50,014 nt of DNA from Teichococcus deserti. GTDB lineage: Bacteria > Pseudomonadota > Alphaproteobacteria > Acetobacterales > Acetobacteraceae. Positions 8,190-46,300 of this stretch are shown one piece after another. Every line of letters begins with the position of its first letter. Within the stretch, counting starts at the first letter, position 1. The stretch spans positions 1-50,014 of the forward strand of contig NZ_MLCO01000044.1 of the NCBI RefSeq assembly GCF_001982615.1, in the 5' to 3' direction. Both the position numbers and the translations under genes were made by a program. The notes below the pieces were generated by a model that was given only the letters and a program-made list of their open reading frames with translations, was not told the origin of the DNA and made no database searches.

Positions 8190-8203
8190 GGCACCAGACT
8201 CCA
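8190..8203 (-). repeat. Isolated iteron-like site d1
   Basis: Exact copy of the iteron core TGGAGTCTGGTGCC on the minus strand, also found twice near parB/repA (20413, 20489). It lies in the divergent gap between the exported-protein gene (start 8128) and the deacetylase gene (start 8269), about 62-66 bp from either start. Confidence 0.7.
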
Positions 8204-8268
8204 CGCATCTTGGAAGGCGGTCCGGGGGGTGGCAGGCTCCCGGCCAGCAAGCTTTGGGAGACGAGCGG

Positions 8269-9438
8269 ATGGCCTATGACCTGATCCTGGCCGGCGGCCG
8301 GGTGGTCGACCCGTCGCAGAAGATCGACGCGGTGATGGATGTCGCCTTCGAGGGCGGCAAGGTGGCGAAGCTGGCGCCCTCGATCGAGGCGCCGCCGGGC
8401 TGCGAGCGGCGCGATGTCAGCGGGCTGATCGTTACCCCCGGCCTGATCGACCTGCACACCCATGTCTATGACGGCGGCACCTCGCTGGGCGTCAACGCGG
8501 AAGAGTTCGCGCGGATCTCGGCGGTGACCACGGCGGTCGATACCGGCAGCGCCGGCCCGGGCAATTTCGCCGGCTTCCGCAAGCACGTCATCGAGCGCAG
8601 CCAGGTCCGCATCCTGGCCTATCTGCACGTCTCCCATGCCGGCATCTTCGGCTTCTCCAAGCGCGTCATGGTGGGCGAGAGCGAGGAGCTGCGCCTGATG
8701 AACCCGATCGAGGCGGTGCAGGTGGCGGACGCCAACCGCGACGTCGTGGTCGGCATCAAGGTGCGGGTGGGGCGGCATTCCTCCGGCACCTCGGGGGCGG
8801 TGCCGCTGAACATCGCGCTGCAGGTGGCCGACGAGGTCGGCATGCCGCTGATGGTGCATATCGACCACCCGCCGCCCTCCTATGAGGAGGTGATCGCCCA
8901 GATGCGGCCGGGCGACGTGCTGACCCATGCCTTCCGCCCCTTCCCCAATTCGCCGGTGAACGCCCAGGGCAAGGTCAAGCAGGCGGTGCTGGCGGCGCGC
9001 GACCGCGGCGTGCTGTTCGACATCGGCCATGGCCAGGGGTCTTTCTCGTTCAAGACCGCCCGCGCCATGCTGGCCAACGGCTTCATGCCCGACACCATTT
9101 CGTCGGATGTTCATTCGCTCTGCATCACCGGGCCGGCCTTCGACCAGGTGACCACCCTGTCGAAGTTCCTGTGCCTCGGCGTGCCGCTGTCCGACGTCAT
9201 CGCCGCCTCGACCAACCTGGCGGCGGCGGCGCTGCAGCGGCGGGAGCTGGGGACGCTGAAGCCGGGCAGCATCGGCGACGCCTCCATCCTGTCGCTGCGC
9301 GAGGGCCGCTTCGACTATGTCGACGTGGTCGGCGAGCGGCTGGAAGGCAGCCAGCGCCTGGTGGCCGAGGGCGTGGTGATCAATGGCCGCTGGTGGCATG
9401 GCCGGTCCGCCGACGAACCGATCCACGGCACCATCTGA
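8269..9438 (+). CDS. Amidohydrolase/deacetylase-family metallohydrolase
   Basis: 389 aa from ATG 8269 with GGGAG at 8256-8260. Amidohydrolase-superfamily barrel: His63 and His65 in DLHTHVYDGG bind the first metal, Lys164 in GIKVRVG is the likely carboxylated bridging lysine, later ligands are in MVHIDHPP and TISSDVHSL. This pattern fits the dihydroorotase-like deacetylase group (COG3964, often annotated amidohydrolase/deacetylase), whose members remove acetyl groups from small acetylated carboxylates such as N-acetyl amino acids; the exact substrate is unknown. It stands alone, ending in a strong terminator at 9463. Confidence 0.85.
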   Translation: MAYDLILAGGRVVDPSQKIDAVMDVAFEGGKVAKLAPSIEAPPGCERRDVSGLIVTPGLIDLHTHVYDGGTSLGVNAEEFARISAVTTAVDTGSAGPGNFAGFRKHVIERSQVRILAYLHVSHAGIFGFSKRVMVGESEELRLMNPIEAVQVADANRDVVVGIKVRVGRHSSGTSGAVPLNIALQVADEVGMPLMVHIDHPPPSYEEVIAQMRPGDVLTHAFRPFPNSPVNAQGKVKQAVLAARDRGVLFDIGHGQGSFSFKTARAMLANGFMPDTISSDVHSLCITGPAFDQVTTLSKFLCLGVPLSDVIAASTNLAAAALQRRELGTLKPGSIGDASILSLREGRFDYVDVVGERLEGSQRLVAEGVVINGRWWHGRSADEPIHGTI

Positions 9439-9462
9439 CCCTTCTTCCAGTGCCGAGCTTGG

Positions 9463-9490
9463 ACGGGGCCCTTGCGGCCCCGTTTTCGTT
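9463..9490 (+). terminator. Rho-independent terminator
   Basis: ACGGGGCC (9463-9470), 5-nt loop, GGCCCCGT (9476-9483), then TTTCGTT. It lies 25 bp after the deacetylase stop. Confidence 0.85.
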
Positions 9491-9550
9491 TCAGCCCACC
9501 CGCCCCTCACCGCAAAATGTGGCGATCTGACGAAACCTCAACCAGGCCTC

Positions 9551-9578
9551 TTGATTGTAGCCTCGGCTACATGCTCAA
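9551..9578. promoter_or_regulatory. Palindromic operator candidate for the metal transporter
   Basis: Perfect inverted repeat TGTAGCC-TC-GGCTACA (9556-9571), flanked by TTGA on the left and TCAA on the right, 64 bp before sitA. Size, symmetry and position suit an MntR/Mur/Fur-type metalloregulator box. The regulator itself is not in the window. Confidence 0.55.
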
Positions 9579-9634
9579 TGGCGGGCCTCAAATGCCTGCC
9601 GTGACCACAGCTCGACCTTCAAGAGGAAGCCTGG

Positions 9635-10555
9635 ATGCGCCTGACGCGACGGATTGCCGCCAAGACCGCTGGCCTGGCCCTGCTGGCCGGGCTGCTGGCC
9701 CTGCCCTCCCTCGCCGAGGCGCGCGACCGCCCGCTGCGGGTGGTGACCACCTTCACGATCCTGCAGGACATGGCGCAGAACGTGGCCGGCGACGCCGCGG
9801 TGGTGGACTCCATCACCCGCCCCGGCGCCGAGATCCATGACTACGAGCCCACCCCCCAGGACATCGTGAAGGCCCAGGCCGCCGACCTGGTGCTGTGGAA
9901 CGGCATGGGGCTGGAGCGCTGGTTCGAGCGCTTCTTCCAGCGCGTGAAGGACGTGCCTTCCGCCGTGCTGACCGACGGCATCACGGGCATCGCCATCACC
10001 GAGGGCCCCTACAAGGGCCGTGCCAACCCGCATGCCTGGATGTCGCCGGCCAATGCGGTGGTCTATGTCGAGAATATCCGCAAGGCGCTGGCCGCGGCCG
10101 ACCCGGCCAATGCGGCGGTCTATGCCGCCAATGCGGCGCGCTACACCGCCGAGATCCGCGCCCTCGACGCGCCGATCCGCGCCCAGCTGTCGCGCATCCC
10201 CGAGGCGCAGCGCTGGCTGGTGACCTGCGAGGGCGCCTTCTCCTACCTGACCGCCAATTACGGCCTGCAGGAGCTGTATCTCTGGCCGATCAATGCCGAG
10301 GAAGAGGGCACGCCGCGGCAGATCCGGAAAGTGGTCGACACCGTCCGCCGCCAGAAGATTCCTGTTCTTTTCTGCGAAAGCACCGTCAGCGACCGGGCGA
10401 TGCAGCAGGTGGCGCGGGAGGCGCGGTCGCGCTTCGCCGGCGTCCTCCATGTCGACAGCCTGACCGGGCCGGAAGGCGACGCGCCGAGCTTCCTGCGCCT
10501 GCTGGATTTCAACGCGAAGGCGATCCTGGCCGCCTTCCAGGACCGGAGGAGCTGA
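9635..10555 (+). CDS. sitA: Metal ABC transporter substrate-binding protein (SitA/PsaA type)
   Basis: 306 aa with a signal peptide (MRLTRRIAAKTAGLALLAGL, cleavage near ALPSLAEA). Cluster A-I solute-binding protein. The four metal ligands are in place: His68 (EIHDYEPTP), His133 (NPHAWMSP), Glu199 (CEGAFSYL) and Asp274 (HVDSLTGP), matching the His-His-Glu-Asp set of PsaA/MntC manganese proteins rather than the three-His ZnuA set. No His-rich loop is present, also against zinc. PINAEEEGTP is a hallmark of the SitA/YfeA/PsaA group. Role: capture of Mn(II), possibly Fe(II), in the periplasm for the three genes that follow. Confidence 0.9.
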   Translation: MRLTRRIAAKTAGLALLAGLLALPSLAEARDRPLRVVTTFTILQDMAQNVAGDAAVVDSITRPGAEIHDYEPTPQDIVKAQAADLVLWNGMGLERWFERFFQRVKDVPSAVLTDGITGIAITEGPYKGRANPHAWMSPANAVVYVENIRKALAAADPANAAVYAANAARYTAEIRALDAPIRAQLSRIPEAQRWLVTCEGAFSYLTANYGLQELYLWPINAEEEGTPRQIRKVVDTVRRQKIPVLFCESTVSDRAMQQVAREARSRFAGVLHVDSLTGPEGDAPSFLRLLDFNAKAILAAFQDRRS

Positions 10556-10557
10556 GC

Positions 10558-11526
10558 ATGCTGATGGGCGCCGCCTCTGGCCCGCCTCCCCTGGTCTTCC
10601 CGCGCTCGCCCCTGCGCGGCTTCGGCGGCTGGCTGATCGAGCGCATCGCGCCCTTCGCTGAACGGACGGCAACCGAGACCCCCGCCGCGGCCGCCGCCCC
10701 CCGCATGGAGCTGCGGGTCGAGGGCGCGACCGTCGCCTATGCCAATGGCCATGTGGCGCTGCGCGATGCTTCTCTCGTCCTCGACCGGCCGACCATCTGC
10801 GGCCTGCTGGGCGTCAACGGCGCCGGCAAGTCGTCGCTGTTCAAGGCGGTGATGGGGCTGGTGACGCCCGCCGCCGGCACCGTCCGCATCGCCGGCGAAA
10901 GCGTGGCCACCGCCCAGCGCCGCAACTGGCTGGCCTATGTGCCCCAGGCCGAGGAGGTCGACTGGGCCTTCCCGGTCAGCGTGCGCGACGTGGTCATGAT
11001 GGGCCGCTACGGCTACATGAACAGCCTGCGCATCCCCTCGGCCGCCGATCGCCGCGCGGTGGAGCAGGGGCTGGCGCGCGTCGGCATGCTCGACTTCGCC
11101 GACCGGCAGATCGGCCAGCTGTCGGGCGGGCAGAAGAAGCGCGTCTTCCTGGCCCGCGCGCTCGCCCAGGACGGCCGCATCATCCTTCTGGACGAGCCCT
11201 TCGGCGGCGTCGACGTCACCACCCAGGAGCAGATTGTCTCCCTGTTGCGGGAGCTGCGGGCCGAGGGGCGGATCATTCTCGTCTCCACCCATGACCTGGC
11301 CAGCGTCCCGGGCTTCTGCGACCAGGTCGCCCTGGTGAAGGGCACCGTGCTCGCCGCCGGCCCCACGGAGAAAGTCTTCACGCCCGCGAACCTGGCGCGC
11401 GCCTTCGGCGGCACCGCCGCCACCCAGGCCGCCGGCGCCAGCGTCACCCTGGTGCCCGGCCCGGACGGGGCGCAGCTGGTGATGGATGCCGAGGGCCGCC
11501 TGCTGGGGCAGCTGCGACCCGAATGA
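10558..11526 (+). CDS. sitB: Metal ABC transporter ATP-binding protein (SitB type)
   Basis: 322 aa from ATG 10558, with GGAGGAG at 10545-10551. Walker A GVNGAGKSS, Q-loop YVPQAEEVDW (the VDW is typical of Mn/Zn transporters), signature LSGGQKKR, Walker B IILLDEPFGG, H-loop VSTHD. Unusually, about 49 residues precede the conserved start MELRVEGATVAY, with a proline-rich stretch and a short hydrophobic patch (GFGGWLIERIAPF). An internal ATG at 10705 would give a family-length protein, but the ribosome site favours 10558. Two bp downstream of sitA. Confidence 0.9.
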   Translation: MLMGAASGPPPLVFPRSPLRGFGGWLIERIAPFAERTATETPAAAAAPRMELRVEGATVAYANGHVALRDASLVLDRPTICGLLGVNGAGKSSLFKAVMGLVTPAAGTVRIAGESVATAQRRNWLAYVPQAEEVDWAFPVSVRDVVMMGRYGYMNSLRIPSAADRRAVEQGLARVGMLDFADRQIGQLSGGQKKRVFLARALAQDGRIILLDEPFGGVDVTTQEQIVSLLRELRAEGRIILVSTHDLASVPGFCDQVALVKGTVLAAGPTEKVFTPANLARAFGGTAATQAAGASVTLVPGPDGAQLVMDAEGRLLGQLRPE

Positions 11527-13228: not shown

Positions 13229-14638
13229 TCAGACGGGGGGGCGGTGCTGCGCCCAGGGCCGCACCGCCTCGAAGGCCGCGGCCATCTGCAGCACGCCCAG
13301 ATCGTCGAAGCGCCGGCCGACGATCTGCATTCCGACCGGCAGCCCGTCGCTGGTGAAGCCGCAGGGAATGCTGGCCGCCGGGTTCTGCGACAGGTTGAAC
13401 GGGTAGGAGAACTCCGCCCAGCTCATCCAGTCCCAGGGGTGCTGCGGCCAATGCGGCGGCTGCAGCAGTTCTGCGGGGAAGGCGGCGGTGGAGACCGCGG
13501 GGGTGATCAGGAAATCCCAATCCTCGAAGAAGCGGTGGATCTCGGCGCAATAGGCATACTTCACGATCCGCATCTTCTGGTAGTCGCTGAGGGAGATGTG
13601 CAGCCCGGCCTCCAGGCAGGCGACGAAGCCGGGGTCCATGCGGTCGCGGAATTCCTCCACCCGGTCGGCATGGCGGCTGAAATGCGCCGGCCAGAAGAAG
13701 CGCGCCAGCTCCGGCCCGCGCGGGCCCCAGGGGGTGGAGGCTGGTTCCACCGCCAAGCCGAGTTCGGATTCAAACGCCTTCGCCGCCTTTTCCACCAGCG
13801 CCGCGACCTCCGGATCGACCCGGGCATGGCCGAGGTCGGCGCTGAAGGCGATGCGCGGGCGGCGCGGGCGGTCGCCCAGGCGGCGCGGATAATCGGCCGG
13901 CTGCGCCTCCAGGCTGGACTGGTCCTCGGAATGCGGCCCGGCCATGACCTTCAGCATCAGCGCGGAATCGGCCACCGTCCGGGTCAGCGGCCCCAGATGC
14001 ACGGTGTAGTCGCTGGCCGCCATCGGCGATTGCGGGATACGGCCATAGCTGGGCTTCAGCCCGAAGACGCCGCAGAAATGCGCCGGCATGCGGATCGATC
14101 CCGCCCCGTCGCTGCCCTGGTGCAGCGGGCCATAGCCGGCCGCCGCCCCCACCCCTGCCCCGGCCGAGGAGGCGCCGGCGTTGAAGCCCTGCTTCCAGGG
14201 ATTGTGGGTGATGCCGGTCAGCGGCGAATGGCTGACGCCGGTCCAGCCGAATTCCGGCGTCGTCGTCTTGCCCAGGATGATGGCGCCGGCCGCGCGCAGC
14301 CGGGCGACCATGACGTTGTCGGCCGTGGCCACGTCGCCGCGGCGCAGATGCGTGCCGTATTCGACCGGCAGGCCGGCCACCGCCTCATGGTCCTTGATGG
14401 TCACCGGGATGCCGTGCAGCGGGCCCAGCGGCGCGCCCCTGGCGATCGCCGCGTCGGCGGCCTGGGCGGCCTCCATCGCCTGCTCGGCGGCCAGGTGGGC
14501 GAAGGCGTTCAGCTTCGGCTCCAGCGCCTCGATCCGCTTCAGCACGGCGGCGGTGACCTCGCTGGGCGCGACCTGCTTGGCGCGGATCGCATCGCCCAGC
14601 GCCGTCGCCGGGGTGAAGCACAGATCGGTCTCGTTCAT
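13229..14638 (-). CDS. Amidase (amidase-signature family)
   Basis: 469 aa from ATG 14638. The Ser-cisSer-Lys triad is intact with family spacing: Lys82 (TIKDHE), Ser157 (GASSAGAG) and nucleophile Ser181 (GSDGAGSIRMPA); the steps of 75 and 24 residues match those of known members. The usual GGSSGG and GSDGGGS appear as GASSAG and GSDGAGS. The family hydrolyses amides, so the substrate cannot be fixed; its absence from a gatCAB cluster argues against GatA. Divergent from otnK. An iteron-like site and an AT-rich segment lie in the gap. Confidence 0.9.
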   Translation of the reverse strand: MNETDLCFTPATALGDAIRAKQVAPSEVTAAVLKRIEALEPKLNAFAHLAAEQAMEAAQAADAAIARGAPLGPLHGIPVTIKDHEAVAGLPVEYGTHLRRGDVATADNVMVARLRAAGAIILGKTTTPEFGWTGVSHSPLTGITHNPWKQGFNAGASSAGAGVGAAAGYGPLHQGSDGAGSIRMPAHFCGVFGLKPSYGRIPQSPMAASDYTVHLGPLTRTVADSALMLKVMAGPHSEDQSSLEAQPADYPRRLGDRPRRPRIAFSADLGHARVDPEVAALVEKAAKAFESELGLAVEPASTPWGPRGPELARFFWPAHFSRHADRVEEFRDRMDPGFVACLEAGLHISLSDYQKMRIVKYAYCAEIHRFFEDWDFLITPAVSTAAFPAELLQPPHWPQHPWDWMSWAEFSYPFNLSQNPAASIPCGFTSDGLPVGMQIVGRRFDDLGVLQMAAAFEAVRPWAQHRPPV

Positions 14639-14678
14639 GCCTGGAACCTCTTGCTGTCCGATGGCCGGAAGAGGGGGC

Positions 14679-14692
14679 GGAAGCAGACTCCA
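14679..14692 (-). repeat. Isolated iteron-like site d2
   Basis: TGGAGTCTGCTTCC on the minus strand, identical in its 14-bp core to the origin copy at 21514. It lies 41 bp upstream of the amidase start and 81 bp upstream of otnK, in their shared control region. Confidence 0.7.
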
Positions 14693-14727
14693 CGCCCGGA
14701 TCAACGGGCGGGCTTCCCTCGGGGCCA

Positions 14728-14750
14728 TTTGGATATATCATATTTGATCT
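14728..14750. promoter_or_regulatory. AT-rich control region between amidase and otnK
   Basis: TTTGGATATATCATATTTGATC stands out as AT-rich in very GC-rich surroundings and contains TATATC/TATGAT -10-like hexamers on both strands. It is the likely promoter/operator zone for the divergent genes; no regulator gene is adjacent. Confidence 0.35.
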
Positions 14751-14773
14751 GAGCGTCGCGCAAGGAGCGATCC

Positions 14774-16051
14774 ATGGCCCCTCCCCTGCTTCTCGGCGCC
14801 TTGGCCGATGACCTGACCGGCGCGGTGGAGCTGGCCGGCATGCTGGTCGCCGGCGGCGCCGCCACCCTGCTGGCCGTCGGGCCCGAGGCGGTGCCCGACA
14901 CGGCGGAAGGACGTCACGCCATCGTCGTCGCCTTGAAAAGCCGTGTCGCGCCGCCGCGCGAGGCCGAGGCCCTGGCCGATGCCTGCGTCGCGCGTTTCTC
15001 TGGCCTGAACGCACGCCAGCTTTTCTTCAAATACTGCGCCACCTTCGACAGCACCGCCGAGGGCAATATCGGCAACATGGCCGAGCGGCTCTGCGCCGGC
15101 GCGCCGTCGGGCCCGGTGATCTTTTGCCCGGCCTATCCGGAAGCGAAGCGCACCGTGTTCCGCAGCCATCTGTTCGTGGCCGACCAGTTGCTGGCCGAAT
15201 CGCCCAAGCGGCACGACCCGCTGACGCCGATGACGCAATCCGACCTGCGCCGGGTGCTGGCGCCGCAGACGCGCCTGGGCATCGGCAGCCTCTTCCTGGA
15301 AGGCATCACCGCCGGCCCCGACTCTATCCGCCGCCACGCGGAGGCCGAGTTCGCCGCCGGCCGCCCCTTCCTGATCGCCGACACCGTCGTCGAGACCGAC
15401 CTGCAGGCCCTGGCCGCCGCCAGCCTGGATTGGAAGCTGGCGACCGGCGGCGCCTCGATCGCGGCCCATTACCCGCCGCTGTGGCGGCAGCGCGGCTGGC
15501 TGGAGGGTGCCACGCCCCCTGCCCTGCCCGCGGTGCACGGCCATGGCGCCGTCCTGGCCGGCAGCTGCGCCGAGCAGACCCGCGCCCAGTTTTTCGCGTT
15601 CCGCGACGCCGGCCATCCGGTGCGGCTGCTCGATCCCCTGGCGCCGCTGGATCAGACCGTGGCGGCGGCGCTGGACTGGGCGACGCCGCGGCTGAGCGCC
15701 GGGCCCGTGGCGCTGTCGCCCTCGATCGAGCCGGAGGCCGTCGCCCGCGCCCAGGCCGCCCTCGGGCCGATCGAAGCCGGGCGGCGGGCCGAGGCGCTGC
15801 TGGGCGCGCTGGCCCAGGGCCTTGTCGCGCGCGGCGTGCGGCGGCTGGTGGTGGCAGGCGGCGAGAGCTCCGGCGCCGTGGTGCAGGCGCTGGGCATCAC
15901 CCGCCTGCAGGTGGCGCCGTTTGCCGCGCTCGGCGTCGGGCGGTGCCTGGCCGAACAGCCCGAACCCCTGGCGCTGGTGCTGAAATCCGGGAAGCTGGGC
16001 GCCATCGACCTCTTCGCCAGCAGCCTGGCCGCCCTGGAGACCGCAGCATGA
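14774..16051 (+). CDS. otnK: 3-oxo-tetronate kinase (four-carbon acid sugar kinase)
   Basis: 425 aa, DUF1537 family. The N-terminal LGALADDLTGAVELAGML carries the ADDLTG motif that defines the family; the C-terminal domain has the nucleotide-binding run VAGGESSGAVVQALG followed by GRC. OtnK phosphorylates 3-oxo-tetronate to the 4-phosphate in erythronate/threonate catabolism. It overlaps otnC by ATGA, so kinase and decarboxylase are made together. The dehydrogenase (Ltnd/Dend) and isomerase (OtnI) of the known pathway are not in the window. Start ATG 14774 follows AAGGAG at 14761-14766. Confidence 0.88.
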   Translation: MAPPLLLGALADDLTGAVELAGMLVAGGAATLLAVGPEAVPDTAEGRHAIVVALKSRVAPPREAEALADACVARFSGLNARQLFFKYCATFDSTAEGNIGNMAERLCAGAPSGPVIFCPAYPEAKRTVFRSHLFVADQLLAESPKRHDPLTPMTQSDLRRVLAPQTRLGIGSLFLEGITAGPDSIRRHAEAEFAAGRPFLIADTVVETDLQALAAASLDWKLATGGASIAAHYPPLWRQRGWLEGATPPALPAVHGHGAVLAGSCAEQTRAQFFAFRDAGHPVRLLDPLAPLDQTVAAALDWATPRLSAGPVALSPSIEPEAVARAQAALGPIEAGRRAEALLGALAQGLVARGVRRLVVAGGESSGAVVQALGITRLQVAPFAALGVGRCLAEQPEPLALVLKSGKLGAIDLFASSLAALETAA

Positions 16052-16689
16052 CCGACAGCCTCGCCGCCTCCCTGGTCGAGACCTACAAGGCGCTGGCCCG
16101 GCATGGGCTGAACCATGGCAGCAGCGGCAATGTCAGTGCCCGGGTCGGCGCCGAGATGCTGGTGACGCCCACCGGCGCCACGGCAGAAAGCCTGACGCCG
16201 GCGCAGATGGTGCGCATGCCGATCCTGGGCCCGGCCGCCGCCGGCAGCGCGCCTTCCAGCGAATGGCCGATGCATGCCGCAGTCTATGCCGCCTGTCCTG
16301 AAGCCGGCTGCGTCATCCACAGCCATGCCGATGCCTGCACCGCGCTGGCCTGCCTGGGCGAGCCGCTGCCCGCCTTCCACTACATGGTGGTGGGCTTCGG
16401 CGGCGCCACGGTGCCCATCGCCCGCTATGCCGCCTTCGGCACGCCGGCGCTGGCCGAAGCCGCCGGCCACGCCATCATCGGCCACAAGGCCTGCCTGCTG
16501 GAAAACCACGGCATGATCGTGCAGGGGCCGGATGCGGCGACGGCGCTGGCCACCGCGCTGCGCCTGGAAACCCTGGCGCGCCAATTCCTTCTCGCGCGCG
16601 GCGCCGGGACGCCCCGCATCCTGTCGGCCGAAGAAGTCGCCGCGGCGAAGGAGCGCTACAAGACCTACGGCAAGCCGGTTCCGCGCTAG
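16048..16689 (+). CDS. otnC: 3-oxo-tetronate 4-phosphate decarboxylase (class II aldolase fold)
   Basis: 213 aa, AraD/FucA-type class II aldolase. GSSGNVSAR at the phosphate site, Glu in SSEWPMH near residue 72, metal histidines in HSHAD (about 91 and 93) and the third His in ENHGM near 153. Together with the overlapping otnK this indicates the OtnC reaction, decarboxylating 3-oxo-tetronate 4-phosphate to dihydroxyacetone phosphate. An L-fuculose-phosphate-type aldolase would look alike, so the name rests on the neighbour. Its stop overlaps the convergent MFS gene's stop. Confidence 0.87.
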   Translation: MTDSLAASLVETYKALARHGLNHGSSGNVSARVGAEMLVTPTGATAESLTPAQMVRMPILGPAAAGSAPSSEWPMHAAVYAACPEAGCVIHSHADACTALACLGEPLPAFHYMVVGFGGATVPIARYAAFGTPALAEAAGHAIIGHKACLLENHGMIVQGPDAATALATALRLETLARQFLLARGAGTPRILSAEEVAAAKERYKTYGKPVPR

Positions 16690-17891
16690 CGCCGCGCCAG
16701 GATCAGGGCTGCAGCGACCAGCTGCAGCGCTCCCGCCGCCAGGAACAGCAGGGCAGAATCGAAGCGCAGCAGGCCGAAGGTCACCGGCGCGAAGGCATAG
16801 GCCGCCTGTCCGGTCGCGGTGACCAGGGCCACGGCGCGTGGCAGGTCCTCGGCGCGGAAGTCGCGCTGGGCGATCAGCGGCGGCAGCGAGGTGGCATTGC
16901 CGATGCCCAGGCCAAACAGCGCGCAGCCTGCCAGCATTACCGGCACCGAGCCGAAGGACCCGGCCAGCATCAGCGCCGAGCCCGCCGCCTGCACCACCCC
17001 GTTAAGCGCCGCCGCCTGCCGCCGGCTGGCCCCGGGCCGCAGCAACCGCCCCACCACCATCCGCCCCAGGATGGCGCAGCCCGTGGCACCCCCCATGGCC
17101 AGCCCGGCAGCGCCCGCGCCCAGCATTGGCACCAGGATGGAAAAGAGATGCGCCACCAGCCCGATCTGGGCGAAGAGCGCCAGGCTGGCCGCCGCCGTCA
17201 GCGTCGCGAAGCGCGCATCCCGCCAGGGATTCCCTGTCAGGGGCGCCGCCTCGATGGGCGGCGCGGCCGGACCCGCTGACAGTGCCTCGCCATCCGGCTG
17301 CTGGCCCATCGCAGCCGGCGTCGGCGCGAAGAACCGCCCGGCCATCCACCACAGCAGCACAGCGAAGATGGCGCCGACCAGCCCGGCGGCGGCGGAAAAG
17401 CCCAGCGCACCGATCAGCGCCACCCAGAGCGGCGACATGATCAGCCCGCCGAAGCTGGCGCCGTTGTAGGCCATGCCCAGCGCCATCGGCCGGCGGTGGA
17501 TGAACCAGGGCGCGACGGCCGCGTTCAGCGCTGCGCCGCTGGTCACCGCCCAGCCGGCGGCGCTGAGCGGCACCGCCAGGAACAGCTGCCAAGGCTGCTG
17601 CGCCGTCGCCCAGCCGAGCAGCCCGATGGCCGTCAGCGCAGCACCGGCCCGCAGCACCGCAACCTGGCCGAAACGCCGGTGCAGCCCGGCAAGCTGCGAC
17701 ACGACCGCCGCCCCGGTCAGAAACTGCACGGTGATCGCCGCCGAGAGCAGCCCGATCGGCCAGCCATGCTGCTGCGACAGGCTCTGCAGGAAGATGGGCG
17801 GGCCGTAGAAGCCGATGCCCCAGGCGAAGAAGGCGGTGACAAAGCCCGCCTGCACCACCTTCCAGCCAAAGAACCTCGTTTCGGTCTTCAT
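16686..17891 (-). CDS. MFS transporter
   Basis: 401 aa from ATG 17891 (MKTETRFFGWKVV). About twelve hydrophobic segments, with a central loop around residues 185-215 (PTPAAMGQQPDGEALSAG). The N-terminal FFGWKVVQAGFVTAFFAWGIGFYGPPIFLQSL pattern is typical of oxalate/formate- or monocarboxylate-type MFS proteins. Substrate unknown; a link to the otnKC pathway is possible but they converge rather than form an operon. It is divergent from an ArsR-type regulator that probably controls it. Starts farther upstream (18017) would run through the shared promoter. Confidence 0.85.
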   Translation of the reverse strand: MKTETRFFGWKVVQAGFVTAFFAWGIGFYGPPIFLQSLSQQHGWPIGLLSAAITVQFLTGAAVVSQLAGLHRRFGQVAVLRAGAALTAIGLLGWATAQQPWQLFLAVPLSAAGWAVTSGAALNAAVAPWFIHRRPMALGMAYNGASFGGLIMSPLWVALIGALGFSAAAGLVGAIFAVLLWWMAGRFFAPTPAAMGQQPDGEALSAGPAAPPIEAAPLTGNPWRDARFATLTAAASLALFAQIGLVAHLFSILVPMLGAGAAGLAMGGATGCAILGRMVVGRLLRPGASRRQAAALNGVVQAAGSALMLAGSFGSVPVMLAGCALFGLGIGNATSLPPLIAQRDFRAEDLPRAVALVTATGQAAYAFAPVTFGLLRFDSALLFLAAGALQLVAAALILARR

Positions 17892-17962
17892 CGCGTCAGG
17901 CCCGTCCGGTGGGATGGCGGCAGCATGGCAAGGCCGTGCGGTGACGTCTGCCCCCCGGCGCG

Positions 17963-17976
17963 TGGATTCTGGTTCC
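17963..17976 (+). repeat. Isolated iteron-like site d3
   Basis: TGGATTCTGGTTCC, one mismatch from the iteron core, flanked by the GCG...GC context also seen at the origin copies. It lies between the MFS start (17891) and the regulator start (18138). Confidence 0.55.
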
Positions 17977-18137
17977 GCCCGGGCGGAGGAAGATCCTGAA
18001 TTGTCGGTGAAGGCCATGGCGCGGCTCCTTCTGCAGCCGACCTTGTCGCGACTGCGGGGCGCGGGATGCTACGGCGCCGGTCGAAGCATGACGCAGCCCG
18101 CCGTGATAGAAAGAAGGCCGCACTGGGAAGGAAGCGC

Positions 18138-18839
18138 ATGCTGAGCACCGCAGGCTTCGCCGGCATCGCCGCGCTGATCGGCGACCCGGCCCGCGCGACC
18201 ATGCTGGCCTTGCTGCTGGACGGCCGGGCGCTGACGGCCAGCGAGCTCGCCGCCGCGGCCGGCATCACGCCGCAGACCGCCAGCGCCCATCTGGCCCGCC
18301 TGACCGAGGCCGGACTGCTGGCGATGGAGCGGCAGGGGCGGCATCGCTACCACCGACTGGCCTCGGCGGCGGTCGCGCAGATGCTGGAGAGCATCATGGC
18401 CGTCGCCGCAGGACAGGTGGCAGTTGCCCCGGTCCGGCCGCGCACCGGCCCGCGGGATGCGGCGATGCGGCTGCTGCGCAGCTGCTACGATCATCTGGCC
18501 GGCCAGGTCGCCGTCGCCCTGGCCGACCGGCTGGCGGCGCGTGGCCAGATCGAGCTGTCGCCCGATGGTGGCGCGCTGACCGAGGCCGGGCGGGGCTTCT
18601 TCGCCGAGATGGGCTTGGCCCTGCCGGAGGCGCGCGGCGGCCGCCTCATCTGCCGGCCTTGCCTGGATTGGAGCGAGCGGCGCCCGCATCTGGCCGGCCG
18701 GCTGGGCACGGCGCTCTGCGGCTTCTGCCTGGAGCAGGGCTGGATGCGCCGGGTGGGCGACAGCCGGGCCATCACGGTGACGCCGCTCGGCTGGCAGGCG
18801 CTGCATCAACGTTTCGCCCTGTCGCCGCAGGACTTCTGA
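18138..18839 (+). CDS. ArsR-family helix-turn-helix regulator
   Basis: 233 aa from ATG 18138 with GGAAGGAA just upstream. N-terminal winged helix: LIGDPARATMLALLLDGRALTASELAAAAGITPQTASAHLARLTEAGLL. The C-terminal extension has CRPCLDWSERRPHLAGRLG followed by LCGFC, a conserved cysteine-containing module in a group of long ArsR-type regulators; the four cysteines could bind metal or sense redox. Divergent from the MFS gene, its probable target. It lies directly left of the partition genes but shows no sign of belonging to them. Confidence 0.85.
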   Translation: MLSTAGFAGIAALIGDPARATMLALLLDGRALTASELAAAAGITPQTASAHLARLTEAGLLAMERQGRHRYHRLASAAVAQMLESIMAVAAGQVAVAPVRPRTGPRDAAMRLLRSCYDHLAGQVAVALADRLAARGQIELSPDGGALTEAGRGFFAEMGLALPEARGGRLICRPCLDWSERRPHLAGRLGTALCGFCLEQGWMRRVGDSRAITVTPLGWQALHQRFALSPQDF

Positions 18840-19006: not shown

Positions 19007-19681
19007 ATGCCAGCCCGCACCGTCAAGAAACCCGAGCGATGCCGGACCATCCTGGTCTCGAGCCCCAAGGGCGGCGTGGGGAAATCGTCTCTGGTCCGCA
19101 ACATTTTGGTCGCGGCCGCCAAGCGCGGGCTGCGGGCCGAGGGCGTCGACTTTGACCCCCAGGGCACGCTGCACAAATGGGCGATCCGCCGCGAGCGGGT
19201 GCGCGAAAGCTTTCCCGAATGCCCCGAGGTGCCGGTGCGCGAGGCCGAGCTTGGCAATTGGCGCAATGCGCTGAAGCCGGGGGAGGGGACGCAGCTGCTG
19301 GTGTTGGACACGCCGCCCAGCATCGAGGTGCATTACAGCGCTGCCATCAGCCTCTGCACCTCGGCGGATTTCGTGCTGGTGCCGACGGGGGCGACGCAGG
19401 ACGATGTCGACAGCGTCATGCCCTGGATGGCGACCCTGGCCTCGGCCGAGGTCAAGGCGGCCTTCATCCTGAACAAGGCCAATCGCCGCACCAAGAGCTA
19501 TGAAAGCATCCGCGCCAAGCTGCTGCAGGGCGGCGCGCTGTGCCCGATCGAGATCCCGCTGCTGGAGGATATCCATGTCAGCGCCGGCAAGGGGCTTGGC
19601 GTGCTGGACTTCAACCGTGGGCGCGCCAACGACACCTTCGAGGCGCTCTGGTCCTATGTCGCGCGGGAGGTCGGCCTGTGA
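19007..19681 (+). CDS. parA: ParA-family partition ATPase
   Basis: 224 aa. Deviant Walker A KGGVGKSS at residues 21-28 with the signature lysine Lys21, Walker A' VDFDPQGT around 47-54, Walker B LLVLDTPPS. Short N-terminus without an HTH, so a type Ib-like plasmid ParA in size; such ATPases move plasmid copies using nucleoid DNA, and their adaptor usually does the repressing. The stop overlaps the GTG of the next gene. Orientation is convergent with repA, with the iterons between. Confidence 0.9.
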   Translation: MPARTVKKPERCRTILVSSPKGGVGKSSLVRNILVAAAKRGLRAEGVDFDPQGTLHKWAIRRERVRESFPECPEVPVREAELGNWRNALKPGEGTQLLVLDTPPSIEVHYSAAISLCTSADFVLVPTGATQDDVDSVMPWMATLASAEVKAAFILNKANRRTKSYESIRAKLLQGGALCPIEIPLLEDIHVSAGKGLGVLDFNRGRANDTFEALWSYVAREVGL

Positions 19682-20388
19682 AGCGCCCTGGATTGTCGCG
19701 CAACGCGCTGAAGTCGCTGGATGTCGACCAGAGCGCCGCGGGCGCACCGCCGGATCGCCGCGCCAAGGACATCGCCGAGCTGATCACGGTGGACGAGGAG
19801 GCGATGCGCACCATCGCCAAGGTCTTCGCCGGCACCAGCCTGCCGAAGGACCCTCGCAAGGTGCGCTCGCTGCTGAAGCTGCGCGGCGAGGTGAACGAGG
19901 CCTGGAGTCAGGCGCGCAACGCCTTCGTGCAGATCGGCCGGGCGTTGAACGACCTGGACAGCGAGCTGACGCGGGATGAGCGTGACCGGCTGCGGCTGGG
20001 CTTCCAGCAGCTGTTCCCCTTCAGCGAGACGGTGGCCAGCCAGTTCCGCCAGATCGCACTCGCCGTCGATGAGGGGCGGCTGCCGCTCGAGGTGCTGCCG
20101 GGCTCCTACGGCACGGCCTACCAGCTTGCGCTGCTGAAGCCGGCCGAGCTGGAGGAGGCACAACTGCGCGGGCTGCTGCGCGCCGATGTCACCCGCAACG
20201 CCGTCATCCAGTTCCGCCGAGAGGTCCTGGCTGTCGCCCGGCATCGCCCGGCGGGCCTGGACCGCAACCGCCTGCTGGCCGAGCTGCGCCGCATCGAGGC
20301 CGACCGCCGTCGCCTGGTGGAGCAGCTGGCCAGGCTGCGGGTCCGCCGCCGGCAGATCAGCGCCATCCTGTCCGGCGAGGAAGGATAG
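19678..20388 (+). CDS. ParB-position protein of the partition operon (no canonical ParB domain)
   Basis: 236 aa from GTG 19678, overlapping the parA stop (GTGA). I see no ParB/Srx NTPase motif (no GERRxxA) and no ribbon-helix-helix. The protein is predicted mostly helical: FSETVASQFRQIALAVDEGRLP then LPGSYGTAYQLALLKPAEL resembles a helix-turn-helix-bearing segment, and the last 45 residues (LLAELRRIEADRRRLVEQLARLRVRRRQ) form a strongly basic coiled coil suited to dimerisation. By position it is the centromere-binding adaptor. A longer ATG start at 19540 lies inside parA and is rejected. Confidence 0.75.
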   Translation: MKRPGLSRNALKSLDVDQSAAGAPPDRRAKDIAELITVDEEAMRTIAKVFAGTSLPKDPRKVRSLLKLRGEVNEAWSQARNAFVQIGRALNDLDSELTRDERDRLRLGFQQLFPFSETVASQFRQIALAVDEGRLPLEVLPGSYGTAYQLALLKPAELEEAQLRGLLRADVTRNAVIQFRREVLAVARHRPAGLDRNRLLAELRRIEADRRRLVEQLARLRVRRRQISAILSGEEG

Positions 20389-20393
20389 CTGCG

Positions 20394-20502
20394 TGGAGTC
20401 TGCTGCCGGGCTTGGAGTCTGGTGCCGGCCGCTCCCTTGACGCTCCGGCCGTGGAGTCTGGTTCCGCCCTGTGGAGTCTGGTTCCGCGTGGAGTCTGGTG
20501 CC
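20394..20502 (+). repeat. Iteron cluster between par operon and repA
   Basis: Five same-direction 14-bp cores at 20394, 20413, 20452, 20472 and 20489: TGGAGTCTG(C/G)T(G/T)CC. Start-to-start steps are 19, 39, 20 and 17 bp, so four of the five steps or double-steps are near two helical turns, as in plasmid iterons. They begin 5 bp after the partition gene and end near the repA terminator. Confidence 0.85.
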
Positions 20503-20576: not shown

Positions 20577-21476
20577 TTAGAGCTTGGCGATCGCCGGCCG
20601 GGAAGGGGACAGCGTGATGCCCCGCTCGGTGACCGAGACACGGGCATCCGGATAGGCGGCCAGCGCCAGTTCCAGGCATTCGATGAAATGCGCGCGGAAC
20701 TTGCGGATCAGCTTGAAGCCGCCGCCGAACTGCGCGTGCAGCGCCATCCAGCTGACCTCGACATCCCGCGTCAGCACGTGCAGGCGATAGGCCAGCCAGA
20801 TATAGACGTCGATCACCATGGAGCGCGGCCCGATGGCGCGCAGCGCGTTCTCCGAAACGGGGACGGGATGGTCCTTCAGTGCGCGGTAGAATTCCTCGTT
20901 CAGCAGCACCCGGTCCTGCCACAGCGCCGGCTGGTCGGAGACCATGTTGGACATGCTGATGCTGCCATCGACGAAGCCGCCATGGCGCATCACCTCCTTG
21001 CCGGCGCGGTCGGTGAAGAACTGCAGGCGGCAGTTGGAGATGCGCTTCGCCTGCTCGTTCACCAGCTTGTAGGTGGTGCCGCCGATGGACAGCCCCATGC
21101 TGCCCAGCCAGACCCGCATGCTGCGGCCGAGCTCGATCTCGCGCGAGCCGGCGCGCACCGCCTCGCTCTGCAGGAACAGCAGGATGAAGCGGGCATAGGA
21201 GCCGTAAGGAATGCCGGTCGGCTTGCCCGAGCGGTCATAGCCGGATTCCAGCAGCAGGGTCAGGTTGTGCCCCTCGCGACGCCAGACCACGTCGGTTTGC
21301 GGCTTGTGCGGCAGCGAGGTCAGGGCGAAGCCGCTATAGGTGAAGCCGATCTTCTCGGCATCTTCCGACAGGACCTGGTAGGCAGCTTCCACCAGCAGCC
21401 GTTCATGCTTGCTGTCGGCCTGCTGGCGGGCGTGGTCGATGCCATGCCGGATGATGAGCTGATGAACCTCGGCCAT
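20577..21476 (-). CDS. repA: Plasmid replication initiator RepA (Pfam RPA type)
   Basis: 299 aa from ATG 21476 (MAEVHQLIIRHGIDHARQQ). It matches from memory the RPA-type replication initiator of alphaproteobacterial plasmids: GFALTSLPHKP near residue 50, GIPYGSYARFILLFLQSEAV, ELGRSMRVWLGSMGLSIGG, then a C-terminal part with the helical IDVYIWLAYRLHVL and FRAHFIECLELALAAYPDARVSV. It binds iterons to start replication. Iteron-like repeats on both sides support this. A TTGACG -35-like hexamer (21506-21511, minus) abuts the first iteron (21514), so RepA could repress its own promoter. Confidence 0.88.
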   Translation of the reverse strand: MAEVHQLIIRHGIDHARQQADSKHERLLVEAAYQVLSEDAEKIGFTYSGFALTSLPHKPQTDVVWRREGHNLTLLLESGYDRSGKPTGIPYGSYARFILLFLQSEAVRAGSREIELGRSMRVWLGSMGLSIGGTTYKLVNEQAKRISNCRLQFFTDRAGKEVMRHGGFVDGSISMSNMVSDQPALWQDRVLLNEEFYRALKDHPVPVSENALRAIGPRSMVIDVYIWLAYRLHVLTRDVEVSWMALHAQFGGGFKLIRKFRAHFIECLELALAAYPDARVSVTERGITLSPSRPAIAKL

Positions 21477-21513: not shown

Positions 21514-21694
21514 TGGAGTCTGCTTCCAGAAGCAATTCGAAGGCTATTTGATTCTTCTATTAGTCTGTGGACCCAGGCTCCACGGGACAAGCGCGAGTCG
21601 CGGCGCCAGACTCCATAGAAGGCGGAAACTGACTCCTGGGGATCTTCGTCTCCCGCTGTGGATATCCTGCGATGGCCGTGTGGAGTCTGGTTCC
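21514..21694. other. Origin-like region: iterons, AT-rich stretch, DnaA-box-like site
   Basis: Upstream of repA, five copies of the iteron core in mixed orientation: + at 21514-21527 and 21681-21694 (exact), - at 21602-21615 (one change), and weaker - copies at 21571-21584 and 21624-21637. AT-rich DNA at about 21535-21570 (CTATTTGATTCTTCTATTAG) could unwind. TGTGGATAT at 21658-21666 is one base from the DnaA box. The whole 274-bp gap 21477-21750 has no gene. Probable oriV. Confidence 0.7.
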
Positions 21695-37384: not shown

Positions 37385-37449
37385 GCTGTCCTCCTCCCGA
37401 TCCTTCCTGATGGGGTCGCCGCTTGACGACGGCGGACCGTGATGTGAGG

Positions 37450-37477: not shown

Positions 37478-37535
37478 ACGCGCGGTGGCGGTTTTCCGAG
37501 GGAAAAGCGGCTGCCGCGGCGACGAGGATGCTGCC

Positions 37536-38231: not shown

Positions 38232-38292
38232 ACCACCGGCTACCGGCCATCGCGCCCGCAGCCGGGCGCGCCCAAGGGAAGGAAACAGCATC

Positions 38293-39360: not shown

Positions 39361-39433
39361 TCTTCTGTCGGTTCCGGCGCGCGGGGTGGAAGCCTCGCGC
39401 GCCGGCTGCGTCTTTCAAGGGTGACGGGGTTCC

Positions 39434-41919: not shown

Positions 41920-41932
41920 GGGAATGGCACCG

Positions 41933-42925: not shown

Positions 42926-42929
42926 CGCC

Positions 42930-44012
42930 ATGACCGCCCATGTCCCGCTGCACGAGGCCCTCGCCGGCGCAGCCCCCGTCGAAATCCTGCGCCAGGGCGA
43001 GCTGTCGGCCACCCTGTTCCGCTTCCCCACCGGCGTCCCGGCGCTGCGCCTGGCCAATGCCCGCGGCGCGGTGGTGGTGCTGCCCTGGATGGGCGGCATG
43101 GTCTGGTCGGCGCGCTTCGACGGCGTGGACCTCGCCATGCAGAGCGGCTTCGACGCGCCGCAGCCGGCCACCACCATCGCCGGAACCTATGGCTGCTTCG
43201 CCTTCCACAGCGGGCTGCTGCGCAACGGGGTGCCCGGGCCGGAGGACGATCACCCCGCCCATGGCGAATTCCCCTGCGCGCCGATGCAGCGGGCCTGGCT
43301 GGAACTCGGCCAGGACAAGCGCGGCAGCTTCCTGCGCGTGGTCAGCGAGCGGCACTATGTCATGGGCTTCGGCGCGCATTACCGCGCCTGGCCCTCGGTG
43401 ACGCTGCGCCCCGGCGAGACGCTGTTCGACATCGGGCTCGGCGTGAAGAACGCCGGCGGCAAGCCGATGGAACTGATGTATATGTGCCACGTCAACTTCG
43501 CCTTCGTCGCCGACGGCGTGATCGAGCAGCCGGCCCCCTTCACCCCCGACCGCACCCAGGTCCGCCGCGCCGTGCCCGCCCATGTCACGCCGAACCCGGC
43601 CTATCTGGCGCTGATCGAGGCGCTGGCGCAGGACCCGGGCCGGATGCGGCGCCTGTCGGAACCCCAGGCCTACGACCCCGAGCAGGTCTTCTACCTGTTC
43701 GGCCTGGGCACCGACGCCAGCGGCGACACGCATCTGATGCTGCGCCGGCCGCAGGGCGACGGCTTCGGCCTGTCCTATTCGCCGGAACGCTTCCCGCAGA
43801 CGGTGCGCTGGATCATGGCCGATCCGGACCAGCAGGTGGCGGCCTTCGCGCTGCCCTCGACCTGCCAGCCGGAGGGCCATGCCGCCGAGACGCGGAAGGG
43901 CCATGTGCAATGGCTGCCCCCGGGCGGCCGGGCCGACTTCACCGTCCGCGCCGGCTATCTCGACCCCGCCGCGGCCGAGGCCTGCGGCGCCCTCATCTCT
44001 TCTTTGACGTAG
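42930..44012 (+). CDS. DUF4432-family aldose-1-epimerase-like protein
   Basis: 360 aa, 4 bp after the permease. Galactose-mutarotase-like beta-sandwich; LPWMGGMVWSARFDGVDLAM, CFAFHSGLLRNG, HGEFP (conserved His) and MELMYMCHVNFAF are the recognisable blocks of DUF4432. Family members occur in sugar ABC operons and are thought to act on sugar anomers. The reaction here is unproven. Confidence 0.8.
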   Translation: MTAHVPLHEALAGAAPVEILRQGELSATLFRFPTGVPALRLANARGAVVVLPWMGGMVWSARFDGVDLAMQSGFDAPQPATTIAGTYGCFAFHSGLLRNGVPGPEDDHPAHGEFPCAPMQRAWLELGQDKRGSFLRVVSERHYVMGFGAHYRAWPSVTLRPGETLFDIGLGVKNAGGKPMELMYMCHVNFAFVADGVIEQPAPFTPDRTQVRRAVPAHVTPNPAYLALIEALAQDPGRMRRLSEPQAYDPEQVFYLFGLGTDASGDTHLMLRRPQGDGFGLSYSPERFPQTVRWIMADPDQQVAAFALPSTCQPEGHAAETRKGHVQWLPPGGRADFTVRAGYLDPAAAEACGALISSLT

Positions 44013-44021
44013 GAGCGGGCC

Positions 44022-44930
44022 ATGGGCGCGCGCATCGGCGTGGTCGGCAGCAATATGGTCGACCTGATCACCTATATCGACCGCATGCCGGCGGCCGGCG
44101 AGACGCTGGCGGCGCCGCGCTTCGCCATGGGCCATGGCGGCAAGGGCGCCAACCAGGCGGTGGCGGCGGCCAAGCTCGGCGCCGAGGTCATGCTGGTCAG
44201 CCGCGTCGGCGATGATCTTTTTGGTGGCGGCACCATCAAGAACTTCCAGGACCTGGGCATCGATACGAAGCATGTCCGCGCCGTCCCCGGCACCCAGAGC
44301 GGCGTGGCGCCGATCTTCGTCGAGGCCTCGGGCGAGAACCGCATCCTGATCGTCAAGGGCGCCAACGAGCACCTGCTGCCCGCCGATGTCGACGCCGCGG
44401 CCGATGACCTGAAGGGCTGCGCGCTGATCCTGCTGCAGCTCGAGGTGCCGCTGGAAACCGTCTACCACACCATCGCCTGGGCGGCGGGGCAGGGCATCCC
44501 GGTGCTGCTGAACCCGGCGCCGGCGGTGCCGGAGCTCGATGTCGGGCGCATCCTGGGCGCCAGCTTCCTGGTGCCGAACCAGACCGAGCTGACCATCCTG
44601 ACCGGCCTGCCCGCCGAGACCCGCGACCAGGCCGAGGCCGCCGCGAGGACCCTGGTCGCCCGCGGCATCCGCCAGGTGCTGGTGACGCTGGGCGCCGAGG
44701 GCGCGCTGCTGGTGACCGCGGATGCGGCGCAGCACGTCCCCTCGGTCCGCGTGACGCCGGTCGACACCAGCGGCGCCGGCGACGCCTTCATCGGCGCCTT
44801 CGCCCAGCATTACGTGGCGCATGGCGACACGCTGGAGGCGATGCGCTGGGGCGCGCGCTATGCCGCGGATTCCATCACCCGCCCGGGCACGCAGATGGCC
44901 TTCGCCACCCGCGCGCAATTCGCAGGCTAG
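44022..44930 (+). CDS. rbsK: Ribokinase-family sugar kinase (ribokinase or deoxyribokinase)
   Basis: 302 aa, PfkB fold. GGKGANQAVAAAKLG at about 41-55 binds the sugar, and DTSGAGDAFIGAFA near 248 carries the anion hole and catalytic Asp. Phosphorylates ribose or 2-deoxyribose at O5. With deoC in the same operon a deoxyribokinase role (deoK) is attractive; the sequence alone does not decide. Its TAG stop lies in the first unit of a 63-bp tandem repeat. Confidence 0.88.
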   Translation: MGARIGVVGSNMVDLITYIDRMPAAGETLAAPRFAMGHGGKGANQAVAAAKLGAEVMLVSRVGDDLFGGGTIKNFQDLGIDTKHVRAVPGTQSGVAPIFVEASGENRILIVKGANEHLLPADVDAAADDLKGCALILLQLEVPLETVYHTIAWAAGQGIPVLLNPAPAVPELDVGRILGASFLVPNQTELTILTGLPAETRDQAEAAARTLVARGIRQVLVTLGAEGALLVTADAAQHVPSVRVTPVDTSGAGDAFIGAFAQHYVAHGDTLEAMRWGARYAADSITRPGTQMAFATRAQFAG

Positions 44931-45050
44931 AGCGTGATGGCTTGAGGTGGAATCACCGAAAAGCCTGAATCACGCGATCAAACAAAAGGCTAGAGCGTGA
45001 TGGCTTGAGGTGGAATCACCGAAAAGCCTGAATCACGCGATCAAGCAAAA
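44925..45050. repeat. 63-bp tandem repeat, two units
   Basis: Units at 44925-44987 and 44988-45050 differ at one base (AAACAAAAGG/AAGCAAAAGG); a third begins (GGCTAGAGCG) at 45051. Each unit is self-complementary: GCGTGAT and GGCTT pair with AAGCC and ATCACGC, with GGTG-GAAT-CACC inside. Similar AGCGTGATGGCTTGAGGTGG elements are familiar from Rhodospirillales genomes (memory, not searched). Confidence 0.85.
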
Positions 45051-45052
45051 GG

Positions 45053-45096
45053 CTAGAGCGGGTTGCCTGCGTCCTTCAGCAGGCAACCCGCTCTAG
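45053..45096. terminator. Perfect 18-bp hairpin between rbsK and MFS genes
   Basis: CTAGAGCGGGTTGCCTGC (45053-45070) pairs perfectly with GCAGGCAACCCGCTCTAG (45079-45096), 8-nt loop. No T-run, but symmetric between two convergent genes. The TAG stop of the minus-strand MFS gene is part of the right arm. Confidence 0.75.
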
Positions 45097-46271
45097 CGCT
45101 GCCGCAGGGCCAGCGCCGCGATCGCGGCGAAGCCCAGCATGCTGCCGGGCAGGCCGATCTGCACCGGCAGCGGCAGGGCGCCGATCATGCCCGCGCCCAG
45201 CGCGCCCACCGCCATGTGCAGCGCCCCCAGCACGGCGCTGGCGGTGCCGGCGGCACCCTCCACCGCCATCAGGGCCAGCGCGATGGCCGGCGGCGCCATG
45301 AAGCCCACCCCCATCTGCGACAGCACCGTCAGCCCGATCGCCAGCCCCGGCGACAGCAGCCCGGCGACCGACAGTGCCAGGAAGGTCGCGGCCGAGCCCA
45401 GCATCATCAGCGTGCCGATCTGCACCAGCTGGGCCGGGCTGCGGCGCAGCCGCGGCGCCAGCAGGCCACCCGCCAGGAAGCCCAGCGCATAGCTCGCCGG
45501 CACCAGGCTGACCGCCAGCGCGCCCCAGCCGAACAGCCCCTCATAGATCCGCTGGGTCGCCGCCACCTCGGCATAGGCGCCGCCGATCGAGGCCGCCGTG
45601 CCCAAGGCGAAGGCCAGGAAGACGCGGTTGCGCAGAACCTTGCGGTAGCTGCCCAGCGTCGCCGCCAGCCCGCCTTCGCGGGTGCGGCTGTGATGGCTCT
45701 CGGGCAGGGCCAGCAGCACCGCCAGCATCACCAGCGCGCCGCAGAGCGCCGTCACCGCCAGCGAGGCGCGCCAGCCGAATTGCGCCGCGATGCCGCTGCC
45801 CAGCACCGGGGCCAGGCCGGGCATGATCGCCATGGCCAGCGTCAGCAGCGACATCACCCGCAGGAAGACCGGCCCGGCGAAGCGGTCGCGGGCGATGGCG
45901 CGCGGCAGGGCCAAGCCGGCGCTGGCGCCCAGCCCCTGCAGCAGCCGCGCCAGCAGCAGCATCGGCCCGCTGCTGGCGAAGGTCGCCAGCACGCCCGCCA
46001 GGATGAACAGCGTCAGCCCGCCCAGCAGCACCGGCCGCCGCCCGTGCCGGTCCGACAGCGGCCCGACCACCAGCTGCCCGAGCCCGATGCCGACCAGCAC
46101 GGCGGAGAGGATCAGCCCGGCCTGCTCGAGCTCGAGCGCCAGGTCGGCGGTGATGCGGCCAAGCGAGGGCACCACCAGGTTGGTCGCCATCTGGCCCAGC
46201 GCGGTCAGCGCCATCAGCAACAACAGGGTGCCGGCCGGCAGCGCTGTGCTGCCGGTGGTGGAACTGCTCAT
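45093..46271 (-). CDS. MFS multidrug-type exporter (Bcr/CflA-like)
   Basis: 392 aa from ATG 46271. Twelve helices; GPLSDRHGRRPVLLGG is the MFS loop 2-3 motif and RLLQGLGASAGLALPRAIARD the DHA1 motif C-like region typical of Bcr/CflA drug exporters. Drug specificity unknown. Divergent from a LysR regulator. An in-frame extension to 47207 overlaps that gene and is not real. Confidence 0.88.
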   Translation of the reverse strand: MSSSTTGSTALPAGTLLLLMALTALGQMATNLVVPSLGRITADLALELEQAGLILSAVLVGIGLGQLVVGPLSDRHGRRPVLLGGLTLFILAGVLATFASSGPMLLLARLLQGLGASAGLALPRAIARDRFAGPVFLRVMSLLTLAMAIMPGLAPVLGSGIAAQFGWRASLAVTALCGALVMLAVLLALPESHHSRTREGGLAATLGSYRKVLRNRVFLAFALGTAASIGGAYAEVAATQRIYEGLFGWGALAVSLVPASYALGFLAGGLLAPRLRRSPAQLVQIGTLMMLGSAATFLALSVAGLLSPGLAIGLTVLSQMGVGFMAPPAIALALMAVEGAAGTASAVLGALHMAVGALGAGMIGALPLPVQIGLPGSMLGFAAIAALALRQR

Positions 46272-46286
46272 TCTGCGTTGATCCCG

Positions 46287-46300
46287 GGGAGTCTGGTGCC
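46287..46300 (+). repeat. Isolated iteron-like site d4
   Basis: GGGAGTCTGGTGCC, one base from the iteron core (first T is G). It lies 16-29 bp upstream of the MFS start and 89 bp before the LysR start, 25 kb from repA. Confidence 0.6.

Follow-up and report, generated by a model that had tools for sequence, protein, structure and literature searches.

The window analysed here, a stretch of 50,014 b that makes up one whole contig (C378) of a 597-contig, 6.25-Mb draft genome, is part of a replicon that resembles a plasmid, from a Roseomonas-type bacterium, and it carries lone copies of the iteron of its own replication initiator, RepA. Judging from comparisons within and between genomes, these copies are real, replicon-specific and conserved initiator-type sites outside the origin. 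Four of them lie in gaps between genes, and we tentatively propose, as a reading with close to an even chance of being right, that these gap sites are selectively maintained and bound by RepA, and that each would be an operator tuning its flanking genes.

The repA gene (20577..21476, minus strand) encodes a replication initiator of 299 aa. Its product matches the Pfam family RepA_C (PF04796) at 73.3 bits, above the curated cut-off of 26, and its relatives in PLSDB are annotated as RepA. This match is a mark of an iteron-type theta replicon, and so are the repeats beside the initiator gene. As had been claimed from the sequence alone, the core TGGAGTCTGSTKCC is found there ten times, some of the copies being weak: seven are exact (20394, 20413, 20452, 20472, 20489, 21514 and 21681) and three inexact (21602 with one mismatch, 21569 with two, 21624 with three). 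Our motif scan places five direct copies in an array (20394..20502, plus strand) between repA and the gene for the probable partition partner of ParA. The others lie upstream of repA (21514..21694), those at 21514 and 21681 on the plus strand and those at 21569 (weak), 21602 and 21624 (weak) on the minus strand, and a DnaA-box-like sequence (21657, one mismatch) lies among them. The gene for a ParA-like ATPase (19007..19681, plus strand) was found by gene calling and family search; the ORF downstream of it, which is the probable partner (19678..20388, plus strand), has no Pfam or NCBIfam match. RepA itself has no sequence relative in the PDB, and its AlphaFold2 model (pLDDT 45) is too poor for a fold search.

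The four further copies described in the sequence-only reading, two of them exact and two with one mismatch each, are all present. The exact copy at 8190..8203 (minus strand) lies 61 bp from the nearest start, in a gap (8129-8268) between a minus-strand gene without a family match (7340-8128) and a plus-strand gene for an amidohydrolase/deacetylase (8269-9438). The exact copy at 14679..14692 (minus strand), which is indeed the same 14-mer as the origin copy at 21514, lies 40 bp from the nearest start, in a gap (14639-14773) between an amidase gene (13229-14638, minus) and a gene for a relative of 3-oxo-tetronate kinase (14774-16051, plus). With one mismatch, the copy at 17963..17976 (plus strand) lies 71 bp from the nearest start, between genes for an MFS transporter (16686-17891, minus) and an ArsR/MarR-type regulator (18138-18839, plus; gap 17892-18137). 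The other copy with one mismatch (46287..46300, plus strand) is 15 bp from the start of another MFS transporter gene (45093-46271, minus), across a gap (46272-46388) from a LysR gene (46389-47258, plus). A candidate fifth site, missed in the earlier note, lies within the amidase gene (13735..13748, plus strand, one mismatch). The genes flanking the lone sites have no obvious common theme. Our scan for sigma-70-like promoters found none in any of the four gaps, in which the sites lie 15-71 bp from a start codon.

By our own gene calls, all four copies lie between divergent genes, as had been claimed. The calls come from a home-made codon-usage gene finder trained on the GC-rich genus; those made on other genomes of the family, where 16 of 28 exact copies appear intergenic, are unreliable and were left unused. 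Outside the origin, the window contains nine divergent gaps longer than 13 b (1487 b in all), four convergent gaps (535 b) and ten tandem gaps (1099 b). The suggested enrichment between divergent genes shows by gap count: sites occupy 4 of the 9 divergent gaps and 0 of the 14 others (hypergeometric p = 0.014, calculated by hand). By base count, divergent gaps make up 48% of the non-origin intergenic sequence, and the placement of all four sites there has p = 0.05.

This placement bears on the alternative of initiator titration or handcuffing, which we regard as well possible, if short of probable. Under titration, the lone iterons would be sinks for RepA, within ~12 kb to the left and ~25 kb to the right of the origin, that are duplicated shortly after a round starts and dampen further initiation; effects on genes would be incidental, and intergenic DNA would merely tolerate the 14-mer. 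The lone copies have one property expected of titration sites, since they repeat the origin's iterons elsewhere on the same replicon, and the probable site within the amidase gene also fits this alternative. It is less readily reconciled with the absence of all four intergenic sites from convergent and tandem gaps. We lean towards promoter control over titration, by a small margin, and the two are not mutually exclusive.

The exact lone copies stand out against the background of exact matches. In the window's own genome, all nine exact copies of the core fall on C378 (seven at repA, and the two lone copies at 8190 and 14679), while the reversed pattern has none. This is the confinement that a whole-genome scan for the core was meant to reveal, and it agrees with titration as well as with promoter control. 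When one mismatch is allowed, 13 of the 17 matches in the genome are on C378 and the four on other contigs are all within predicted genes; the reversed pattern gives three. At up to three mismatches the window has 24 matches versus 17.7 expected, so that weak matches alone mean nothing. Among 17 genomes of the genus (~88 Mb by listed sizes), exact copies number nine in the window's own genome, nine in Roseomonas sp. 18066 (G015) and one in G007. Only two of these lie outside the replicon (in G007 and on G015 contig C22), both within predicted genes. Two stray copies per ~88 Mb amount to about one per 44 Mb, or ~0.001 expected per 50 kb, and the claim that two exact lone 14-mers would be very unlikely by chance is thus upheld. 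Of 397 genomes in the family, 28 contain at least one exact copy. With G000 and G022 set aside, the forward pattern has 27 matches in 26 of these genomes versus 11 in 10 for the reversed pattern, and rates taken from reversed patterns are therefore too low by ~2.5-fold.

Weight matrices lead to the same picture. A matrix trained only on 21 iterons from Geminicoccus and Acidisphaera scores the lone sites at 26.0, 25.1, 25.0, 20.9 (13735) and 16.8 (46287) bits, and in 1,159,507 b of other Roseomonas sequence it finds a single match of at least 16 bits (18.0 bits, on G015 C22, in a gene). We also built matrices from the origin copies of three iteron families, A (the iteron studied here), B (C400-type) and C, and counted matches of at least 19 bits, with origins excluded, on cognate and non-cognate contigs, all of which had been chosen for having repA or matches. 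In 140,917 b of cognate sequence, family A has seven intergenic matches, about half of them orthologues (the G015 copies), and one that is called genic; 1,088,505 b of non-cognate sequence contain two genic matches and no intergenic one. It is very improbable, given this null count, the rarity of exact copies in the genus and the conservation described below, that the lone copies are operators of an unrelated transcription factor that happen to resemble the iteron, or products of chance, even though near matches do occur within genes elsewhere. A chance origin in particular was considered and rejected on the exact-match counts, the independently trained matrix and the conservation footprint.

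Over most of its length the window aligns at ~84-92% with two contigs of Roseomonas sp. 18066, and all five lone copies, including that at 13735, are syntenic there. The counterparts of 8190 (G015 C33:8594), 14679 (C33:2119) and 46287 (C27:15684) are conserved, and that of 17963 (C27:46183) is conserved with one change. The gene finder labels C33:8594 genic, owing to a start extension, but the alignment shows the orthologous spacer. In the four gaps together, the 18-b sites are identical at 70 of 72 positions, compared with 418 of 566 in the remaining spacer (Fisher p = 4e-7). The 18-b windows conserved at least as well as the site number 2 of 123 for the 8190 gap, 24 of 229 for 17963 and 6 of 100 for 46287; for 14679 they number 37 of 118, and so that gap by itself is no evidence. 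The two species differ at 1 of 70 positions in the lone copies and at 7 of 140 in the origin copies, and at four of the five lone sites the variant or mismatch itself is retained in both. Such near-base conservation of individual sites exceeds what interchangeable sinks would need, and it argues against titration. The G015 contigs reach ~14 kb and ~12 kb past the aligned region, and these extensions hold no more copies at up to two mismatches; the sites thus lie nearer the origin, which speaks for titration.

Beyond this species pair, the spacer between the MFS and LysR genes has orthologues in four genomes of the genus that have no exact copy of the motif (G004, G012, G010 and G001). The site is absent from all four, and the best matrix score across the four 3-kb loci is 12.4. 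For the amidase and HTH genes, related coding parts occur elsewhere, but the matches end near the gene start; nine such loci were scanned, with a top matrix score of 6.7. The motif at 13735, identical in G015, is altered in three relatives of the amidase. The sequence-only reading is supported in part. That the lone copies are true iterons, confined to the replicon and selectively kept, is well supported for their own iteron family by the counts, the conservation and the matrices. Their position between divergent genes speaks only mildly for regulation, and the probable fifth site is intragenic.

It is important to ask which protein would bind these sites. Close relatives of RepA are found in Roseomonas sp. 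18066 (97%), two Geminicoccus species (83%), Acidisphaera (80%) and an Asaia MAG (73%); the same iteron adjoins repA in the first four of these, and a one-base variant does so at the Asaia locus. Remoter RepAs go with remoter iterons, as in RHOApg (70%; GTGGAGTCTGGGGG), C592 (45%), C585 (44%) and C400 (35%). Indirectly, then, these comparisons support the view that the motif tracks RepA, the two travelling and diverging together. The five-copy array stands directly behind the operon of parA and its partner, and one could suppose that the lone copies are parS-like sites, bound by the partition protein rather than by RepA. We consider this very improbable. The motif is not a palindrome, and its divergence follows that of RepA. 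By tblastn, the loci of Geminicoccus, Acidisphaera and Asaia, which are only 5-11 kb long and in some cases cut near repA, show no match to the partner ORF, and neither does the RHOApg locus; the gene evolves fast, with 33-34% identity even where it is found. The iteron thus accompanies relatives of RepA beside which no match to the ParA partner was found, which makes RepA the likely binder, and we infer that it binds the lone sites too.

Plasmid Rep proteins repress their own rep promoters, and E. coli DnaA is both an initiator and a transcription factor, with DnaA boxes at promoters such as that of uvrB. Like E. coli DnaA boxes, the candidate initiator sites described here are dispersed near gene starts, whereas DnaA is a chromosomal initiator and RepA an iteron-type plasmid initiator. 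If the gap sites are operators, RepA in excess over the origin iterons would occupy the promoter or leader region at each of them, and one or both flanking genes would be repressed or tuned, much as initiators do at the promoters of their own rep genes. Some RepA would also be soaked up by the extra sites, with a mild effect on copy number alongside. A bolder form of this proposal, to which we give a low but not negligible probability, is that RepA is at the same time a transcription factor specific to its replicon, controlling a small regulon through single-iteron operators, so that metabolic genes would read off free RepA and, with it, copy number or replication state.

The closest precedent comes from chromosome II of V. 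cholerae. According to Baek and Chattoraj (2014; PMC3937223), the initiator RctB is titrated there by five lone iterons and a 39-mer, spread over 74 kb and ~40 kb from the origin; an oriII plasmid falls in copy number when these extra-origin sites are supplied in multiple copies, and deletion of one site alone leaves viability unaffected. Lone RctB iterons appear as initiator titrators in PMC6090056 as well. As on that chromosome, with its datA-like locus, we find lone copies of the initiator's own iteron on the same replicon, within tens of kb of the origin, and this is direct precedent for titration. The V. cholerae sites were mapped by ChIP-chip, and both binding and the drop in copy number were shown, whereas the sites described here belong to a RepA_C initiator, lie in divergent gaps and are known from sequence. 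Extra-origin initiator sites occur in plasmids too, with inhibitory roles only according to PMC3937223. RctB also represses PrctA, which overlaps iterons, and its own promoter by way of a 29-mer (PMC3937223 and PMC6090056). Our sites resemble this autorepression in that the initiator's own site is close to a start codon, and differ from it in that the neighbouring genes serve metabolism, transport or regulation and have no tie to replication. Literature searches covering the open PMC subset turned up no account of an iteron-type plasmid initiator that works at accessory-gene promoters. Initiator sites outside the origin are already known from RctB; their form here, as single iterons between divergent genes on a RepA_C replicon, looks new. 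Should RepA act at these promoters, the replication protein would itself couple copy number to accessory metabolism, with no dedicated regulator, and such coupling would offer a plasmid a direct route to being integrated into the genome in the manner of a chromid. If the copies are titration sites, the control principle of V. cholerae chromosome II would extend to another initiator family.

Some lone intergenic copies occur in other RepA/iteron families of the genus too, with less clean confinement, and several replicons have none. Family B has four intergenic and six genic matches in 588,052 b of cognate sequence, versus none and seven in 641,370 b of non-cognate sequence; the genic copies are thus about equally frequent on and off cognate contigs, and exact copies away from the origin are mostly within genes across the 17 genomes. 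The lone intergenic family B copy at G004 C2:419737 counts against confinement, the B-type repA of that genome being on C3. Family C has seven intergenic matches, including two in convergent gaps (C592:30878 and G002 C74:4985), and two genic ones in 292,965 b of cognate sequence, versus none of either kind in 936,457 b of non-cognate sequence. We left out of the count a family B pair on C105, called intergenic, which lies at the end of a contig, has identical flanks and may be an assembly artefact, as well as family C pairs on C577 and G015 C72, which form inverted repeats in convergent gaps and may be terminators. No RepA match is present in any of the three stretches, and as non-cognate sequence they would add two intergenic matches to B and up to four to C. 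Family A is thus cleanly confined, whereas for B and C the confinement is no more than suggestive.

On the complete R. mucosa AD1 plasmid, whose iteron is CGGACTCTACCGAC, seven copies lie at repA and no lone copy is intergenic; a single copy with two mismatches lies away from repA, within an annotated CDS, while the reversed-pattern control gives three. Lone intergenic copies are likewise missing from RHOApg and the C585 contig. Three genomes from other genera that carry this type of RepA showed none either, with one match at one mismatch set aside; the pattern fits the Asaia variant poorly. A regulatory role of RepA, if there is one, may have arisen more than once in large RepA_C replicons of Roseomonas. 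For example, three family B copies, one of them below 19 bits, share a 424-b gap on G011 C42 that precedes a B12-dependent ribonucleotide-reductase-like gene (a weak family match), and the copy at C592:7521, between purC and an SDR gene, is present in G015 as well, where ~100 b around it are also conserved.

A candidate fifth lone iteron, that is, a single copy away from the repA origin, is located in the window at 13735-13748, within the amidase gene. When sequences are compared, this motif is identical in the Roseomonas sp. 18066 (G015) copy, and changed in three amidase relatives.

Iterons of the B-type, the family of the RepA encoded on T. deserti contig C400, occur in congeners as well. 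In G011, three of them share one 424-b gap, with a B12-dependent ribonucleotide-reductase-like gene downstream (C42 281123-281443, or L180 1123-1443; contig size 403 kb). In G004, a lone intergenic B-type iteron is found at C2 419737 (L086 1501-1515), on a different contig from the one that bears the B-type repA.

For the C-type, another RepA/iteron family of the genus, three iterons lie in a 404-b gap of congener G002, distant from the repA cluster (C74 185205-185435, or L163 5205-5435); its flanks, named by eye, are presumably a GntR-type gene and a large regulator-like gene. A C-type iteron also separates purC from an SDR gene on T. deserti contig C592 (L042 7521-7535), which bears a repA too, and this iteron is present in G015.

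The window further contains a repeat of ~250 b (5642-5896), to which three other stretches are 77-79% similar: one on T. deserti C400 and two on G015 C22. The Rhodovastum plasmid RHOApg (L082, NZ_OW485608.1), whose RepA is 70% identical to the window's, carries capsid, terminase and tail genes, and therefore looks like a phage-plasmid.
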